Positions 5,360 through 27,705 of a stretch of DNA of 54,654 nucleotides are shown here, piece after piece; the stretch's first letter is position 1, and every line of letters begins with the position of its first letter. Both the position numbers and the translations under genes were made by a program. Source of the DNA: a virus. The stretch lies in IMG/VR virus record IMGVR_UViG_3300044515_000008, positions 1-54,654 of that record; one strand, written 5' to 3'. The notes beneath the pieces were generated by a model. The model saw nothing but the letters and a program-made list of their open reading frames with translations, was not told where the DNA came from and searched no databases.

Positions 5360-6094
5360 TTACGGGGTTGGGTTTTCCACTCGCGCTAGCAATGCCTGCA
5401 CTTCGGGTGAGTCGGCAGGGTTGCTAGTTGCTGCTGCCATCCCGGGCTGCCCTTGCGGGAATGTCATGGTCGGGTGCGGTGCGGGAATGTCGTAAACGGC
5501 GCGTGCCGCCGCGAGCTGCTCGGCTGCCCCTACGGTGGGCGCCACCGTCGCCGGTACGGCCATAGCGGGAAGTGCGGCCGGTGCGGCAGGGGCCGTCTGG
5601 ACGGGCGGGGCAGGCATCGGGGCCGGTGCCGCTGGCGCCGGTGCGCCTTGCATGATCATGCCGGACGCTGGGGGAACGTACACGGCCGTGTAAAGCTTCT
5701 TTGGTGAACCGGCGCCGGTTTCCTCTTCGCCGATGAATTGAATGCCGAGTACCGCACCGACAAGGATATCGGTTGCGCCGGATGCGCGAACGGCGACGGC
5801 TAGCGCGCGCTGGGTTTCACTCGACGCCCGGATGTAGACGCCACGAATACCGTCGTCGTAGGCAATGAGCGGGTCACGCACGATTGTTTGCAGGTCAATG
5901 CGGACCTGGTAAATGGGCTGCGTCTTGAGATCATCCCAGTATTCGAGGTCGCCGAGCTTGCCGTCAGTGCGGAATTTCCGCGACTGCTGCTTGTCGTGAA
6001 TGGCAACAATAGTGCCTTGAACGAAGTCACCAATGGTGGCGAACTTAGCCGAGGCAACCCCGCTTCCCAGAATTAGGTCGCGTGCGTCTGACAT
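5360..6094 (-). CDS. Putative single-stranded DNA-binding (OB-fold-like) protein
   Basis: 244 residues. The first ~140 are beta-rich (VQGTIVAIHDKQQSRK, YQVRIDLQTIV, GIRGVYIRAS, LGIQFIGEEE), the pattern of an OB-fold SSB-like domain in phage replication modules; the last ~100 are Pro/Ala/Met-rich and likely disordered, ending in an acidic segment as in SSB tails. Immediately upstream of the primase-helicase. The role is inferred from fold pattern and position. ATG with AAAGG upstream. Confidence 0.6.
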   Translation of the reverse strand: MSDARDLILGSGVASAKFATIGDFVQGTIVAIHDKQQSRKFRTDGKLGDLEYWDDLKTQPIYQVRIDLQTIVRDPLIAYDDGIRGVYIRASSETQRALAVAVRASGATDILVGAVLGIQFIGEEETGAGSPKKLYTAVYVPPASGMIMQGAPAPAAPAPMPAPPVQTAPAAPAALPAMAVPATVAPTVGAAEQLAAARAVYDIPAPHPTMTFPQGQPGMAAATSNPADSPEVQALLARVENPTP

Positions 6095-13615: not shown

Positions 13616-13646
13616 GGTGGCGCTCCCTGATGAGTAGTTATAGAGC

Positions 13647-13678
13647 GGGGGGACCGCATATCCGGCGATCCCCCCGCA
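13647..13678 (-). terminator. Hairpin closing the tRNA-like cluster
   Basis: A 9-bp stem (GCGGGGGGA with TCCCCCCGC) around an inner CCG/CGG, just after the last tRNA-like element in the minus direction. No long T-run follows on the minus strand (TCTATAA), so termination strength is uncertain. Confidence 0.6.
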
Positions 13679-13680
13679 TT

Positions 13681-13727
13681 AATTGTGTAATGGATTTCAA
13701 GTCCATTGCTCGGTGAGAGCGACAATT
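13681..13727 (-). ncRNA. 47-nt T-armless tRNA-like element with UGA anticodon loop
   Basis: On the minus strand the order is a 6-bp end stem (AATTGT/ACAATT), a hairpin GCTC-TCACC-GAGC in the D-arm position, one A, and an anticodon-type hairpin ATGGA-CTTGAAA-TCCAT with U33 and anticodon UGA (Ser), then the closing strand. No T-arm and no CCA. On the plus strand the same sequence also folds, with loop TTTCAAG. It may be a minimal tRNA mimic, a tRNA remnant or a stable 3' structure. It directly follows the permuted tRNA-like modules. Confidence 0.4.
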
Positions 13728-13783
13728 TAGCTACGACTGGGGACGAATGACGCATTTAAAATGTACGGGTCAAGCTGAGTTAA

Positions 13784-13854
13784 CGTCGGGTTCTGCCATT
13801 GAACTATGGGACCACGTTGGAGGTTCCAGCCGGACTCGAACCGGCATTACGACG
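13784..13854 (-). tRNA. Circularly permuted tRNA-like module P2 (3' half before 5' half)
   Basis: Reading minus: CGTCG-TAAT, T-arm GCCGG-TTCGAGT-CCGGC, acceptor 3' strand TGGAACC, T73, encoded CCA (13854-13818); a 4-nt linker ACGT (13817-13814); then acceptor 5' strand GGTCCCA, TA, D-arm GTTC-AATGGCA-GAAC with the usual A14 and GG, C26, CGACG (13813-13784). The acceptor strands pair at 6 of 7 positions and CGACG/CGTCG pair 5 of 5 at exactly the anticodon-stem position, followed by T32 T33. Neither half has a partner in the normal order nearby. Amino acid identity cannot be set because the loop junction is unknown; T73 with GGT/ACC ends resembles tRNA-Cys. Confidence 0.5.
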
Positions 13855-13926
13855 AAAGGCGCACGCACATAGTAGATTCACAAGTCCGTAGCAATACTGA
13901 CTATAAGGGCGAGAGTTTGACGTTTG

Positions 13927-14003
13927 CGTCCTGCTGCCTCTACCAATTGGGCTACCGGGGCAAGCGTGCCCCGGGGAGGATTCGAACCTTCACTGTCGCG
14001 GGA
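13927..14003 (-). tRNA. Circularly permuted tRNA-like module P1 (3' half before 5' half)
   Basis: Reading minus: TCCCGC, a 6-nt variable segment, T-arm GAAGG-TTCGAAT-CCTCC (one A-C mismatch), acceptor 3' strand CCGGGGC, A73 with no CCA (ends 13967); 5-nt linker CGCTT; then acceptor 5' strand GCCCCGG, TA, D-arm GCCC-AATTGGTAGA-GGC, A26, GCAGG (13961-13930). The acceptor strands pair 7 of 7. The anticodon stem GCAGG/CCCGC has one A-C mismatch and no U33 can be placed, so this copy is less regular than P2 and may be decayed. Confidence 0.45.
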
Positions 14004-14052
14004 TGTGTCGCATTGAGTCTAAGCCTTGTGCTGAGTCTGAGTCTGTGCCCTA

Positions 14053-14076
14053 ATTCCCCGAACATGTGTCCGGGGA
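14053..14076. terminator. Hairpin after the 14084-14815 gene
   Basis: Stem TTCCCCGgACA/TGTtCGGGGAA with a 4-nt loop lies just after the stop of the minus gene ending at 14084. Plus reading is followed by GCTTTATTAT; minus reading has no T-run. It may separate the coding mRNA from the tRNA-like cluster or act as a processing boundary. Confidence 0.5.
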
Positions 14077-14083
14077 AGCTTTA

Positions 14084-14815
14084 TTATGCGAACAGGTAGC
14101 CGAACACGGTGCCGCCGATATTGTTTTCGATGGCTTCGGCCCCGTTCGCCACTTCGCGTGCGACCTTGACCGCACGAGCGAGAGTGTCCACACGCGTCAC
14201 TAACTCGGCGACCCGCGATGCCTGTACGGCGCCCGAAAAGTTAACGGTCGTCCACGTACCGGCTACGATATCTTCGTACCACATCTCCACTTGCGCCGCG
14301 TGCTTGTCGGTTGCCATGGCCTTGACGTGGTTACGGGGCACCTTTTTCGTCTTCGTGGTCTCTCGTGCGTCCGTCGCAAAACAGTCCGCAGATTGGCTGT
14401 AAGACCAATGCTCGGCGGGGTCAAGTACGGGCAACTTGCGAACAAACGTGCGCAAGTCGGCTAGCTGCTTTTCGAGGAATAGCAGCACCGTTACCGGCAC
14501 GGCGGTCAGCAGTGCGACACCGTCGACGACGATATCGGCCCGCGCTACCGTGTTCGTGGTTTCCTTCGTGGCGACCACATCGAACATGCGCGTCAAGTCC
14601 TTTACTACCAACGAAATCACGTCGTCGGTGCGAACCTGAACGCGGGTCGATTCCGGCGGCAACCGGTCGCCGTCGTCGTCTTTCGGCGAGTACGTGCGGG
14701 AGATTCCCGACAAGAGAGACTGTGTCTGTAGTTCGTGGTACGCCTTCGTGAGCGACGCAACCCCTTGCCCCTTAACGGTTTTCTCGATAGCGATGATCTG
14801 ATTTAGCTTGGCCAC
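14084..14815 (-). CDS. Conserved phage protein of unknown function
   Basis: 243 residues from the GTG at 14815, with AAGGAG eleven bases upstream; the longer frame to 14887 starts in intergenic-looking sequence. Begins MAKLNQIIAIEKTVKGQG and contains SRTYSPKDDDGDRLPPES; mostly helical. The family recurs in actinophages next to an AAA+ ATPase gene (recollection); here it directly follows one. Possible partner of that ATPase. Confidence 0.65.
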   Translation of the reverse strand: MAKLNQIIAIEKTVKGQGVASLTKAYHELQTQSLLSGISRTYSPKDDDGDRLPPESTRVQVRTDDVISLVVKDLTRMFDVVATKETTNTVARADIVVDGVALLTAVPVTVLLFLEKQLADLRTFVRKLPVLDPAEHWSYSQSADCFATDARETTKTKKVPRNHVKAMATDKHAAQVEMWYEDIVAGTWTTVNFSGAVQASRVAELVTRVDTLARAVKVAREVANGAEAIENNIGGTVFGYLFA

Positions 14816-14911: not shown

Positions 14912-16381
14912 TTACGCGGCGCGCTTCAAGCTATAGATGGTGTTCTGCTCGTGCGGCTCCACACCGGACACGAAACCCATGCCGTTGACACTGTCCTTAA
15001 TCAACTCCGCGAGCTGGTGATCAAGCGGGTTGACCGCCACACCTTCCTTGGCGTCTTGCATAAGGTCATGCTGGGGACGTAGGCCGTCGGCGGCGTTCAC
15101 CAGGTCGGCCGTGCCGATGACGTCCGGCACACCGTCGTTTCGGGAGATGGTGTACATGAGTGCCCGGTCAATGGCGGACTTCGCGAACGCGGGAAGGAAA
15201 CCGTCGAAAGCCTTAGCTACCACCGAATAGTTGATCGATCCGAGCAGCTTTTCCGGGATCACTACCTTGATCAGCTTCTCGTATCCGGCCGCGTCGAGTC
15301 CAGCAATCTCGACCAGCGCGTCAATGCGTCCCGGCCGCAACACTCCCTTTTGGATCTGATCAAGGTGGTTCGTGGTGAACCCAGCGAGAATCGCCACGCC
15401 TTTATTAGCGATGCCGTCGAGCGAATCGAGCAGGCCGCTAATCTGCTGCGCGCTGGTGCCCTTTGCCACGTTGTCAATGTCCTCGTACCAGACGACGGCG
15501 GGCGCGTACAATTCGGCCGTGTGCAACACTTCCTGAAGATCATCCTTGCCGGGACGGGCGAGAATGAAAGTCCACCCGTTGGCTACGGCCTCTTTCGCGG
15601 TGAGCTGCCCGGCAAGTGTCTTGCCCGTACCGTACGGCCCGTACACCAACACGCTTCGCTTGAGCGGGATTCCGTTGTCCCGCATGGTGTCCGTGTATCG
15701 GAGCATTGACCAGAAATTCGTGTCGAGCTGCGTCTGTACCGCATCGGAGTACACGACTCGTGACGGGTCGATTGACGCGGTGTCAAGGAAAGCGGGGTCA
15801 TCGCCGCCGGTAATGGCCTTGCCCCGGTAGATCGAATTCGTCTTGAGCTCGTTCTCTACGACCTGAAAGAACGCTTCGATGTAGGCGCGGTACCGGCGCG
15901 GTGCCTCGACGCCGATAGCGAACACGAGTCCGAAGTCATTGTGTGTCGTGTGCAAAGTGAATTCGGCAGAGAGCGGGGAAAAGCTGACCGTGCCCCACGG
16001 AATTTGAATCGACTGCGTCGAGCTAACCGGGATGGTGCGGTATTGCGGCTTGTACTCGCCGAACATGTCCGACACGGTGACTCCGATACCGACGGTTCCG
16101 AACGTGTTTTTCATGGCGTTCTGAAACGCGTTGGCCCCGTCCCACGGGCGGTAGTCGAATACGCGGGTGAATTCGAAAGTGTTGTTCTGCTGCTTGTCGT
16201 ATTCATTGAGGTACCGTCGCGCCCCCTGAATATCGCCGCTCATGCTCTCGGGGAGAATGAACTTGGTCCCCTCAAAGATGAGACTGTCATCCCCAATGGT
16301 GATCTTCCCCAGCTCGCCGAGCTTCGCCAGGATAGCCGCGCGGGTTTTCTCTTCGGCCGTCGTGGCCTCTGCTGTAGACAT
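14912..16381 (-). CDS. AAA+ ATPase
   Basis: 489 residues from the ATG at 16381. The C-terminal half has the full ATPase set: Walker A GPYGTGKT (~248-255), Walker B VVWYEDID (~296-303), sensor-1-like TTN (~336-338) and LRPGRID (~348-354) with the arginine expected of CDC48/FtsH-type AAA domains. The N-terminal ~200 residues form an unrecognised domain, likely for substrate or partner binding. Probably remodels nucleoprotein complexes in replication or recombination. Confidence 0.88.
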   Translation of the reverse strand: MSTAEATTAEEKTRAAILAKLGELGKITIGDDSLIFEGTKFILPESMSGDIQGARRYLNEYDKQQNNTFEFTRVFDYRPWDGANAFQNAMKNTFGTVGIGVTVSDMFGEYKPQYRTIPVSSTQSIQIPWGTVSFSPLSAEFTLHTTHNDFGLVFAIGVEAPRRYRAYIEAFFQVVENELKTNSIYRGKAITGGDDPAFLDTASIDPSRVVYSDAVQTQLDTNFWSMLRYTDTMRDNGIPLKRSVLVYGPYGTGKTLAGQLTAKEAVANGWTFILARPGKDDLQEVLHTAELYAPAVVWYEDIDNVAKGTSAQQISGLLDSLDGIANKGVAILAGFTTNHLDQIQKGVLRPGRIDALVEIAGLDAAGYEKLIKVVIPEKLLGSINYSVVAKAFDGFLPAFAKSAIDRALMYTISRNDGVPDVIGTADLVNAADGLRPQHDLMQDAKEGVAVNPLDHQLAELIKDSVNGMGFVSGVEPHEQNTIYSLKRAA

Positions 16382-16488
16382 ACGGTGTCGCCTCGCTGTT
16401 TGTCGTTGAATGATGCGTGACACTGTGAGGAATCGGACCTCATGCGGCTAACGTCGGGGTAACCGTCTTTACTCGTCCAGTGCCGTTC

Positions 16489-19371: not shown

Positions 19372-19830
19372 ATGAGCACCCGTGCACCCGACCTACGTCC
19401 GCCGCTAGCCCTGCTACGCGCTACCCAGCAGGATGACGGGATGACAGATCTACAGTGGCAAGCTCTCGGCCACGCCGTGGCGTACCGGCTTGACGAACTC
19501 GGCTATAGGAGTGTCGCAAAATTCGTCGATCAATCCGGCACCGACTTCTCAATCAAAACAATTCGCCGTCTTGTGAATGGCGGCAAAGTCAGCCGGTCGA
19601 CTCTGATCAATGTCGAAAAGTATTTGTTCTGGGGACCCGGTTCAATGGATGCGATCTTAGCGGGAAAGAAGCCATTCCCAAAGAAGGTCGAACCGGTCAC
19701 CGATGATGAACGCATACTGTGGGATACGCTCGTTCAACTCAACGTGGACCAGATTGACAGGGTGGAACATATCGCATTGTTCCGCGCGCACGCGAGTAAG
19801 TCTGACTCGGCCGAAAGTGCGGGTGCGTGA
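19372..19830 (+). CDS. Putative immunity repressor (HTH protein)
   Basis: 152 residues. Central region (LGHAVAYRLDELGYRSVAKF, then TIRRLVNGGKVSRSTLINVE) has HTH-like helices; C-terminal acidic helix may dimerise. It is the first plus-strand gene, divergent from the early operon and coupled to integrase (stop overlaps the integrase start), the usual place of a phage repressor. A second ATG at residue 24 follows a Pro/Arg-rich segment and could be the true start. Confidence 0.65.
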   Translation: MSTRAPDLRPPLALLRATQQDDGMTDLQWQALGHAVAYRLDELGYRSVAKFVDQSGTDFSIKTIRRLVNGGKVSRSTLINVEKYLFWGPGSMDAILAGKKPFPKKVEPVTDDERILWDTLVQLNVDQIDRVEHIALFRAHASKSDSAESAGA

Positions 19831-21011
19831 TGGCCTGGACAACGAAGAACACCAAAGGCGAATTCCGCGCACTGTACCGCGACCCTGCGGGTAAGGCGCT
19901 CACCGTAAAGGACAGCAACGGCGACACCGTTTACTACCCCGGCAAGCGTGCCGCTATGGCCGCTGGTCGCGATGCCGAGTCGACGGCCCGCCGCAAGGCA
20001 CCGCAACGCACAACCACCGGCGGCGATATTCCGTGGGGTGATTGGTGGGACCAGATCGGCGGCAACCGCCACAAGACCAGCGACGGTGACGCTAACGAAA
20101 AGATCGTTGTCGAAAAGCATATCCGCCCGACGTGGGGTACAACGCCGCTCAACCGCATTACCAACCATGACATTAAGGAATGGATTAAAGAGCTAGCGCT
20201 CAAGCACTCCCCGAAGTACGTCGAATACATTTACTATATTTTGAAGGTCAGCCTAGACCTCGCCGTCGATGAGAAATACGGCGTGCTCGACGCAACACCA
20301 TGCACCGCGAAAATGGGCCTGCCTAAAATCGTAAAGAAGGCAATGCCCTATATCACCGATGCGGATATCGAACTGTACCGCGTGCACGGCCTACGCAAGG
20401 ACTACCTAGCCGTACTCGAATTCGCTTACCAAAGTGGCATGCGGCCTAGCGAAGTTTGCGGGCTGCACACGGAAGCAATCAATTGGGATACCGGGTGGTG
20501 CTATGTCGCCAACTCACTTGTACCGGGAATGATGGCAATCCGGCCGTTCACCAAAAACGGCGAAACCCGGCCCGCTCCGCTTATCGACCAGGCACTCAAG
20601 CTAGTTGTCGCCGCACTGGACGGCCGCGAACTACGCAACGGGTGCGGCCTTGAACACCTCGACGGCAAGCCATGCGCGGACGACCTGATTTTCCGCACCG
20701 TACGCGGAGCACCGATCACCCCCCGCAATCTCGCGCAAGCCATGCGGAACGTAGCGAAGAAAGGTGGATTCAAAGGCAAGTCCCCATACGCGGCTCGACG
20801 CGGCGCGGCAACGGCCGCCATTGTCGGCGGTGCCCCACAACTCGACGTCGAGAAAGGTCTAGGTCACGCCAACCTTGACGAGACGCGCGGGTATCACCAG
20901 ATGACACCCGAAGTGCGCAACCGCCTGCAAACCGCGCGCGACGCGGCAAGCGCCGCACCGGCCGCACCGGCATTGACCATTGTCCGCCCGAACACCACCC
21001 ACGCGGCATAA
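19830..21011 (+). CDS. int: Tyrosine integrase
   Basis: 393 residues from the ATG at 19830 (a GTG precedes it by one codon). Core-binding domain ~85-160, catalytic domain ~170-375: Arg in YQSGMRPSEV (~205), box II PYAARRGAA (~319-327, Tyr in place of the usual His of HxxR), GLGH (~346) and nucleophile Tyr in ETRGYHQM (~355). Catalyses site-specific integration into the host chromosome. attP was not identified nearby. Confidence 0.93.
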   Translation: MAWTTKNTKGEFRALYRDPAGKALTVKDSNGDTVYYPGKRAAMAAGRDAESTARRKAPQRTTTGGDIPWGDWWDQIGGNRHKTSDGDANEKIVVEKHIRPTWGTTPLNRITNHDIKEWIKELALKHSPKYVEYIYYILKVSLDLAVDEKYGVLDATPCTAKMGLPKIVKKAMPYITDADIELYRVHGLRKDYLAVLEFAYQSGMRPSEVCGLHTEAINWDTGWCYVANSLVPGMMAIRPFTKNGETRPAPLIDQALKLVVAALDGRELRNGCGLEHLDGKPCADDLIFRTVRGAPITPRNLAQAMRNVAKKGGFKGKSPYAARRGAATAAIVGGAPQLDVEKGLGHANLDETRGYHQMTPEVRNRLQTARDAASAAPAAPALTIVRPNTTHAA

Positions 21012-26856: not shown

Positions 26857-27705
26857 ATGACGGACACAATCCAGAGTCGGCTACTGGGGCAAAAGCTGAG
26901 GTCAGCGCGCGAAAACGCGGAGCTTGCCCGTGAGGAAATGGCTACGCTGCTCGGGGTCCAGCCGCCGACGGTCAGCCGGTGGGAGCGCGGTAGCCGCAAG
27001 ATCAGCAACCGCGACCTGGTCCGTTACCTCCAGCACTGCAATGCGACCACCGAAGAAATGGACGAATTGCAGTTGCTTGCGGACGACTCGGAAGTATCCG
27101 TGTGGATAAAGTTTCAAGCGCACACCGATCAAAGTCTAATCATGGCCGCCATCCTTCGAGCCGAAGAGCAGGCAATCCGTATCACGTACTTGTGCAACGG
27201 AACTGTGCCGGGGCTTCTGCAAGCGCCCGCCTATTCGCGCGCCATTATGCAAACCGCCGGTGTATCCGATGACGTAGCTAGGCAGCGCGTAGCCGAACGG
27301 CAGGGACGCGGGCAAGTTATAAGACGTCGAGATACCCCAGTCCAGCTAATTGCAATACTTGATGAGTCGGTCATTCATCGCCAAGTGGGCGGCCCGGAAA
27401 CATTCTTGCAGCAACTACGATATCTCGTGGAGTGCGCAGAGCTTCCGAACGTCACCCTTAATATCGTTCCCTTTACGGCAGGATGGACACAGCTACAACG
27501 TGGACAGTTTTTCATCATTGATTCAGCTGACACTAAGTCGGTAGTGCATCAAGAGATCCAAGATGCGAGCTTCTTTTTCAATGATGCCGTTCACGTCGAC
27601 GACGTCTATCGTCATGCCGTCGAGGAAACGAAAGGGAAGGCATTGAGTCACGAAGACTCAATCCGACTCATTGTTAATCAGATTGAGAAATTGGAGAAGG
27701 AATAA
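26857..27705 (+). CDS. XRE-family regulator with DUF5753 domain (WhiJ-like)
   Basis: 282 residues. N-terminal XRE HTH (~8-65): LGQKLRSARENAELAREEMA then LLGVQPPTVSRWERGSRKIS. DUF5753 (~95-270) with RAEEQAIRITYLCNGTVPGL, YSRAIMQTAGV, RRDTPVQLIAILDESVIHR and LNIVPFTAGW. This pairs with DUF397 genes in Streptomyces and relatives (WhiJ family, developmental control). Its codons are less GC-rich than those of its neighbours, which may indicate separate acquisition. Confidence 0.9.
   Translation: MTDTIQSRLLGQKLRSARENAELAREEMATLLGVQPPTVSRWERGSRKISNRDLVRYLQHCNATTEEMDELQLLADDSEVSVWIKFQAHTDQSLIMAAILRAEEQAIRITYLCNGTVPGLLQAPAYSRAIMQTAGVSDDVARQRVAERQGRGQVIRRRDTPVQLIAILDESVIHRQVGGPETFLQQLRYLVECAELPNVTLNIVPFTAGWTQLQRGQFFIIDSADTKSVVHQEIQDASFFFNDAVHVDDVYRHAVEETKGKALSHEDSIRLIVNQIEKLEKE

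Follow-up and report, generated by a model that had tools for sequence, protein, structure and literature searches.

A DUF7873-linked structured RNA with two probable circularly permuted tRNA mimics in phages and bacteria

The window considered here is the complete stretch of 54,654 nucleotides constituting the IMG/VR virus record IMGVR_UViG_3300044515_000008, and the features of the element described below all lie on its minus strand. The gene at 14084-14815 (-) encodes a protein of about 243 aa belonging to DUF7873 (PF25283; Pfam score of 335.8 bits against a gathering score of 27, E=2.3e-100), and directly downstream of it two circularly permuted tRNA-like units follow each other. A sequence-only reading had located this pair at 13784-14003; the place was right but the size was underestimated, as the element extends from about 14077 to 13645 and takes in stems that flank the units, a hairpin resembling a terminator and an anticodon arm without the rest of a tRNA. 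On its other side, the DUF7873 gene is adjoined by an AAA ATPase gene (14912-16423, minus strand), which belongs to a PHROG without assigned function and is not an obvious neighbour in the bacterial loci inspected. Elsewhere in the window, integrase and repressor-like genes (19827-21011 and 26857-27705, both on the plus strand) suggest a temperate phage.

In both units, the 3' half precedes the 5' half, with complementary acceptor strands. Module 1 (P1, 13936-13991) reads as a T-arm with 4/5 pairs (GAAGG-TTCGAAT-CCTCC, 13975-13991), the acceptor 3' strand CCGGGGC (13968-13974), a 6-nt loop ACGCTT (13962-13967), the acceptor 5' strand GCCCCGG (13955-13961), then TA and the D-arm GCCC..GGC (13936-13952). 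Module 2 (P2, 13790-13845) shows the same order, namely a T-arm with 5/5 pairs (GCCGG-TTCGAGT-CCGGC, 13829-13845), the acceptor 3' strand TGGAACC (13822-13828), the 8-nt loop TCCAACGT (13814-13821), in which CCA is encoded, the acceptor 5' strand GGTCCCA (13807-13813), then TA and the D-arm GTTC..GAAC (13790-13804), followed by CGACG-TT. On re-reading, the acceptor pairing is 7/7 in P1 and 6/7 in P2, as first claimed, and so is the 5/5 pairing at the anticodon-stem position of P2 between CGTCG upstream of the T-arm (13850-13854) and CGACG (13784-13788), with TT next. The corresponding strands of module 1, CCCGC (13998-14002) and GCAGG (13930-13934), form 4/5 pairs. The spacer between acceptor strands had been given as 4-5 nt; it is indeed short, but that count began after the discriminator or the CCA, and the true loops measure 6 and 8 nt.

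A strict detector of permuted units, which overlooks divergent copies, was applied to the window and its relatives; its only hits in the window are these two units, and 40 Markov-simulated sequences, each twice as long as the window, gave no hit. ARAGORN reported no tRNA gene in the window, where no contiguous cloverleaf is seen, and Rfam at gathering thresholds gave no match in the element. Across 81 elements, acceptor strands pair at 6.93/7 in the permuted order versus 4.2/7 in the normal order. The halves are not parts of ordinary tRNAs and the order is truly circularly permuted; loss of acceptor complementarity in relatives, which had been named beforehand as a possible refutation, is not what these figures show.

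Around the units, further segments can be delineated. Between the DUF7873 stop codon and the element start, a G+C-rich hairpin of the TTCCCCGG...CGGGGAA type (14054-14077) has similar counterparts in several relatives. Module 1 is enclosed by an outer helix, whose 5' strand AGGGC (14047-14051) pairs with GCCCT (13906-13910), and is flanked by tract A (14014-14044), conserved with a period of 6 nt (A NNN T N), and tract B (13893-13919), which displays conserved TCAG-type repeats and includes the 3' strand of that helix. Module 2 forms the tip of a long hairpin consisting of stem I (13878-13884 with 13744-13750), a conserved internal loop (5' side AATCTAC, consensus ATCGA, 13871-13877; 3' side TTTAAATGCG, consensus CTTAAACG, 13751-13760) and stem II (13862-13870 with 13761-13769). 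Further on come a canonical anticodon arm, ATGGA-CTTGAAA-TCCAT (13690-13706, anticodon UGA), orphan of any D, T or acceptor arm, and a strong G+C hairpin (13645-13677) that closes the element, is terminator-like without a T run and has an equivalent at the same place in relatives. A scan for consensus promoters and terminators found none.

Regarding the fold, structure tests were performed on 36 aligned relatives and an unsupervised mutual information analysis on 80 non-redundant elements; the latter ranked first the permuted acceptor, T- and D-stems as well as the B:C stem below module 2. Covariation in the 36 relatives supports the acceptor, T and D stems as arranged in the permuted order. 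For the module 2 hairpin, 36 of the 38 pairs show changes on both sides, including 7/7 pairs in stem I and 9/9 in stem II, 87% of cells are paired and the covariation score reaches 0.676 against 0.223 when shuffled and 0.13-0.17 with slid partners; for the module 1 domain, 23/27 pairs changed on both sides with a score of 0.389 against 0.133. Because the structures derive in part from the tested sequences, the slid control would on its own be too favourable to them, but the compensatory changes are independent of that. The outer helix of module 1, with consensus GGAGYG:YRCTCC, came out of the covariation search; a long A:B pairing over the full tracts was discarded, as covariation supports this outer helix only. 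The helices with the poorest pairing are the anticodon-like stems (53% and 61% of cells paired), which is partly an alignment effect; over 81 elements they nonetheless pair better with their own partner (4.05 and 3.99 of 5) than with swapped ones (3.08 and 3.07). Module 2 caps a covarying stem that extends far beyond the length of an anticodon stem. At the tertiary level, the Levitt 15-48 pair of module 2 covaries (UA in 31 relatives, CG in 5, broken in none of the 36) and the modules therefore very probably form a tRNA elbow. A covariance model, R1, built from 36 training sequences including the window, matches the window at 13733-13892 with 108.8 bits (E=8.8e-24), a score to be read with this inclusion in mind. 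Single-sequence folding of the window is no better than that of its own shuffles (z = -0.8).

The conservation of tract A has an autocorrelation of 0.64 at lag 6, a value reached by none of 5000 permutations (alignment A5, columns 75-106), while the lag-6 periodicity of tract B is at p about 0.02-0.05. The 6-nt period of tract A suggests repeated contacts or a regular paired geometry. A coding origin, where alternating Leu-Lys codons would generate this period, was judged unlikely on reading the sequence, given that the A and B frames are out of register and stops are present.

DUF7873 is neither mentioned nor given a function in the open-access full-text literature searched; its AlphaFold2 models are of high confidence (pLDDT of 89.8 and 92.6), and a Foldseek search with them gave no match at E<=1e-3 and no recognisable RNA-binding fold. 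A Cas7-like DUF7873 filament on the 6-nt tract was considered from weak Foldseek matches of one model, which were not reproduced with the second, and was dropped.

In 20 bacterial genomes where DUF7873 is single-copy, the best R1 match lies just downstream of the gene in 19, although several of these genomes fed R1 and give strong hits by construction, so that broader samples are a better test of co-occurrence. Among 41 Streptomycetaceae genomes, the RNA is present, and always adjacent, in 22/22 with an intact DUF7873 gene and in 0/19 without one (18 gene-less, 1 with a fragment only); in an actinobacterial sample, 99 of 100 genomes are without DUF7873 and without the RNA. In Herpetosiphon aurantiacus, the RNA at 1.17 Mb (locus L201, 1170500-1174500) and the DUF7873 gene at 3.01 Mb (3008209) are about 1.8 Mb apart on one chromosome and, though unlinked, the RNA has both modules intact. 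Such co-occurrence implies a functional pair acting in trans. At a few loci, DUF7873 is present and a simple detector did not find the RNA nearby; in the Microcoleus phage My-WqHQDG (L026), no RNA lies directly downstream of the gene, but R1 gives a weak match some 2 kb farther along (5789-5933, 35 bits).

The relatives were drawn from viral contigs, GenBank phages and bacterial genomes, the latter providing at least 550 confirmed DUF7873 stretches, of which the best 80 were retained. At most viral loci examined, both units lie right downstream of DUF7873, in low-GC and high-GC phages alike. Named phages with both units are Gordonia Phendrix and Ziko, Arthrobacter Mimi, Rhodococcus NiceHouse and Pseudanabaena Pam2, and in the more diverged phages of Rhizobium, Vibrio and Klebsiella one unit or more is present; the RNA is unannotated in all of them. 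Chromosomal copies occur in Actinomadura, Nocardia, Streptomyces, Ktedonobacter, Myxococcus and Armatimonadota bins, and at least one unit is found at 60 of the 66 bacterial loci whose downstream sequence reaches 600 nt or more, as counted with the strict detector that misses divergent copies. No conserved neighbour was obvious at the few bacterial loci inspected.

Phage copies bring additional tRNA parts. In the interval separating the closing hairpin from the last stem, a complete tRNA is present in 14 of 44 phage elements, and 9 of the 30 phage elements without a full tRNA exhibit an orphan, perfectly paired anticodon arm, for which shuffling predicts 0.8%; none of the 36 bacterial elements has such an arm. 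These orphan arms comprise a 5-bp stem and a loop of the Y-U-NNN-R-N type with varied anticodons, and no other tRNA part. Besides the window, they were recorded in L034, L035, L045, L067, L068, L076, L081 and L096, and by eye in L004 and L013.

The region 14077-13645 (-) is thus probably one structured noncoding RNA, which would act in trans with DUF7873 as a particle displaying two tRNA mimics. The RNA would be the RNA part of this particle and the DUF7873 protein encoded just upstream its protein part. In each module, the anticodon arm of a tRNA would be replaced by a helix leading into the remaining RNA: module 2 would cap the long B:C hairpin, module 1 would stand between the two tracts closed by the outer helix, and both would fold into a tRNA elbow without any splicing. 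By analogy with the tRNA-like module of YrlA in the Ro60 particle, the modules would most likely recruit tRNA-binding proteins, be they modification enzymes, PNPase-like nucleases or tRNA-attacking enzymes. Comparison of relatives establishes the structure, its covariation, the elbow tertiary pair and the tight co-occurrence with DUF7873, whereas the physical binding of DUF7873, the targets of the mimics and the cellular role are inferred. Several observations weigh against this reading: DUF7873 has no recognisable RNA-binding fold, CCA is encoded in many modules, the window by itself folds no better than its shuffles, the anticodon-like stems pair poorly and, at a few loci with DUF7873, the simple detector did not find the RNA nearby.

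As for that role, the orphan arms and tRNAs in phages point to tRNA decoy or tRNA protection. A decoy is the leading idea for the phage forms because cleaving tRNA anticodon loops is often a second-line defence of bacteria against phages (PMC7824862) and because a competitive-inhibitor role has been proposed for the tRNA-like domain of YrlA (PMC7790460). A broader and tentative possibility is that DUF7873 and its twin tRNA-mimic RNA constitute a class of Ro60-independent particles spread across several phyla and phages, where the phage RNA, together with its orphan arm, would show all the tRNA parts separately and act as a decoy absorbing or blocking host anticodon nucleases or other tRNA-targeting defences.

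The acceptor loops could be cut as in permuted tmRNA, yielding an RNA in two or three pieces held by the long stems, with CCA ends perhaps aminoacylated. A CCA after the discriminator is encoded in at least one module of 28/45 viral elements, where N-CCA directly follows the acceptor 3' strand, and of 18/36 bacterial elements, which counts against a purely closed mimic, since the latter would not need CCA. Besides, the acceptor loops range from 3 to about 60 nt across relatives and seem dispensable, permuted tmRNA itself is a precedent and the contig of one relative contains a tmRNA_permuted match (L010, a viral contig, RF04321 at 5558-5855, 59.8 bits). Yet the CCA is missing from both modules in 18/36 bacterial and 17/45 viral elements, a reading frame for a tag was not seen, the D-arm has the normal tRNA form and not that of tmRNA, and neither RF04321 nor tmRNA models match the window, even with E relaxed to 5, which makes processing of this kind unlikely.

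That the modules are those of an ordinary Y RNA, binding Ro60 (TROVE) from the phage or the host, is quite improbable, even if the module topology is shared, with T-arm, acceptor and D-arm on a stem. In a relaxed Rfam search, both window units match YrlA positions 30-81, at 24.1 and, for module 1, 21.7 bits, and phage relatives match YrlA over its full length (1-114), in several copies, at 33-38 bits, so that all these scores (21.7-38) are below the gathering score of 69. This threshold is not decisive alone, because Ro60-adjacent YrlA copies in actinobacteria also fall under it (44-54 bits); the RNA is better distinguished by its partner gene and the sequence of its stem than by the score. 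TROVE is present in 11 of the 20 bacterial genomes with this RNA and in the Rhizobium phage RHph_Y65, which would fit a Y RNA, but the other 9 genomes carry the RNA without a TROVE match and none is found in the window, so that the RNA does not require Ro60. Where TROVE does occur, it comes with its own Y RNAs: YrlA-like RNAs adjoin it in several of the 11 genomes and have, by eye, a different conserved stem. RHph_Y65 (NC_070967.1, 133300-142000, L200) contains DUF7873 and its RNA, with a TROVE (Ro60) gene and YrlA-like RNAs a few kb off.

The sequence-only reading had proposed permuted tRNA genes whose halves would have to be joined. On this view, the transcript would be cut and ligated at the anticodon, RNase P and RNase Z would remove the acceptor loop, and two working tRNAs would result. 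The T- and D-arms in permuted order, the acceptor and the Levitt pair are all tRNA-like, CCA is encoded in P2 and many relatives, and permuted tRNA genes have precedents in algae and one archaeon (PMC3978253). Position 33, however, is T in just 22/81 elements for module 2 (C29, T22, A15, G15) and 17/81 for module 1, and 32 different triplets occupy positions 34-36 across the 81 elements, which do not make usable anticodon loops. Known permuted tRNA genes rely on a bulge-helix-bulge and a splicing endonuclease (PMC3978253), but in the covarying structure what comes beyond the anticodon-like stem of module 2 is a large asymmetric internal loop, then the 9-bp stem II and stem I, with no bulge-helix-bulge. 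RtcB, the RNA ligase family searched for, and TROVE are both absent from the window, and the RNA follows a protein family rather than codon usage. Being tied to DUF7873 in many phages and soil bacteria, the same RNA is indicative of a conserved RNA-protein system rather than of tRNA genes awaiting splicing. Spliced permuted tRNAs, rejected on the U33 and anticodon statistics, the structure around the stems and the lack of RtcB, are highly improbable.

A permuted-exon ribozyme, with segments A, B and C as a self-splicing core, has in its favour the conserved unpaired motifs ATCGA and CTTAAACG adjoining the modules, but it is very remote, considering that Rfam gives no group I or II intron match on the window even at relaxed thresholds, that a group I permuted intron-exon arrangement consequently finds no Rfam support, that no splice-site triplet is conserved and that module 1 is missing or unrecognisable in some relatives. 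Decay from a phage tRNA cluster is suggested by the many relatives located inside tRNA arrays, but its likelihood is negligible, since the acceptor and T-stem pairs show strong compensatory change across distant hosts, which refutes an ordinary tRNA or pseudogene cluster, and the element also occurs on bacterial chromosomes outside tRNA arrays.

The structured RNA displaying two tRNA mimics constitutes a family of noncoding RNA that has apparently escaped description and is paired with one fixed partner protein. Its members occur in Streptomyces, Nocardia, Actinomadura, Myxococcus, chloroflexi and many phages, and neither Rfam 15 nor the open-access full-text papers found describe the family. 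The family would extend Y-RNA-like tRNA mimicry beyond the Ro60 system, explain permuted tRNA halves in bacteria and phages without splicing, and provide DUF7873 with a first testable hypothesis, while the phage use of detached tRNA parts against tRNA-cleaving defences becomes testable as well.

Among known systems, the permuted tRNA genes of red and green algae and of Thermofilum likewise have the 3' half first and a short intervening sequence at the acceptor, but the phage RNA differs from them by the absence of a bulge-helix-bulge and of a conserved U33 or anticodon, by its long extra stems and by its link with a protein family. The permuted two-piece tmRNA (RF04321) shares a permuted acceptor/T domain, sometimes with CCA encoded in the loop, whereas in the phage RNA the D-arm is that of a normal tRNA, the mimic domain is present twice, a tag frame was not seen and the element gives no match. 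YrlA (RF02553; Salmonella structure PDB 6CU1) shares the permuted T-arm, the closed acceptor arm and the D-arm on a long stem, and also occurs in phages. This Y RNA can be superposed on tRNA once a circular permutation is allowed for (PMC11472068) and connects Ro60 to PNPase (PMC8394870); it has the same connectivity and yet needs no splicing (PMC11472068, PMC8394870), and its tRNA-like module, recruiting proteins for the Ro60 particle, is the model for the mimic role proposed here. The phage RNA nevertheless has two modules per RNA, the extra tracts A and B, and DUF7873 instead of Ro60 as partner gene; phage copies add an anticodon arm or a tRNA, and the stem sequence of Ro60-adjacent YrlA (L197/L198) is absent, as judged by eye, from the DUF7873-linked RNA. 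By analogy, the latter would work like a Y RNA module without being classed as a Y RNA.
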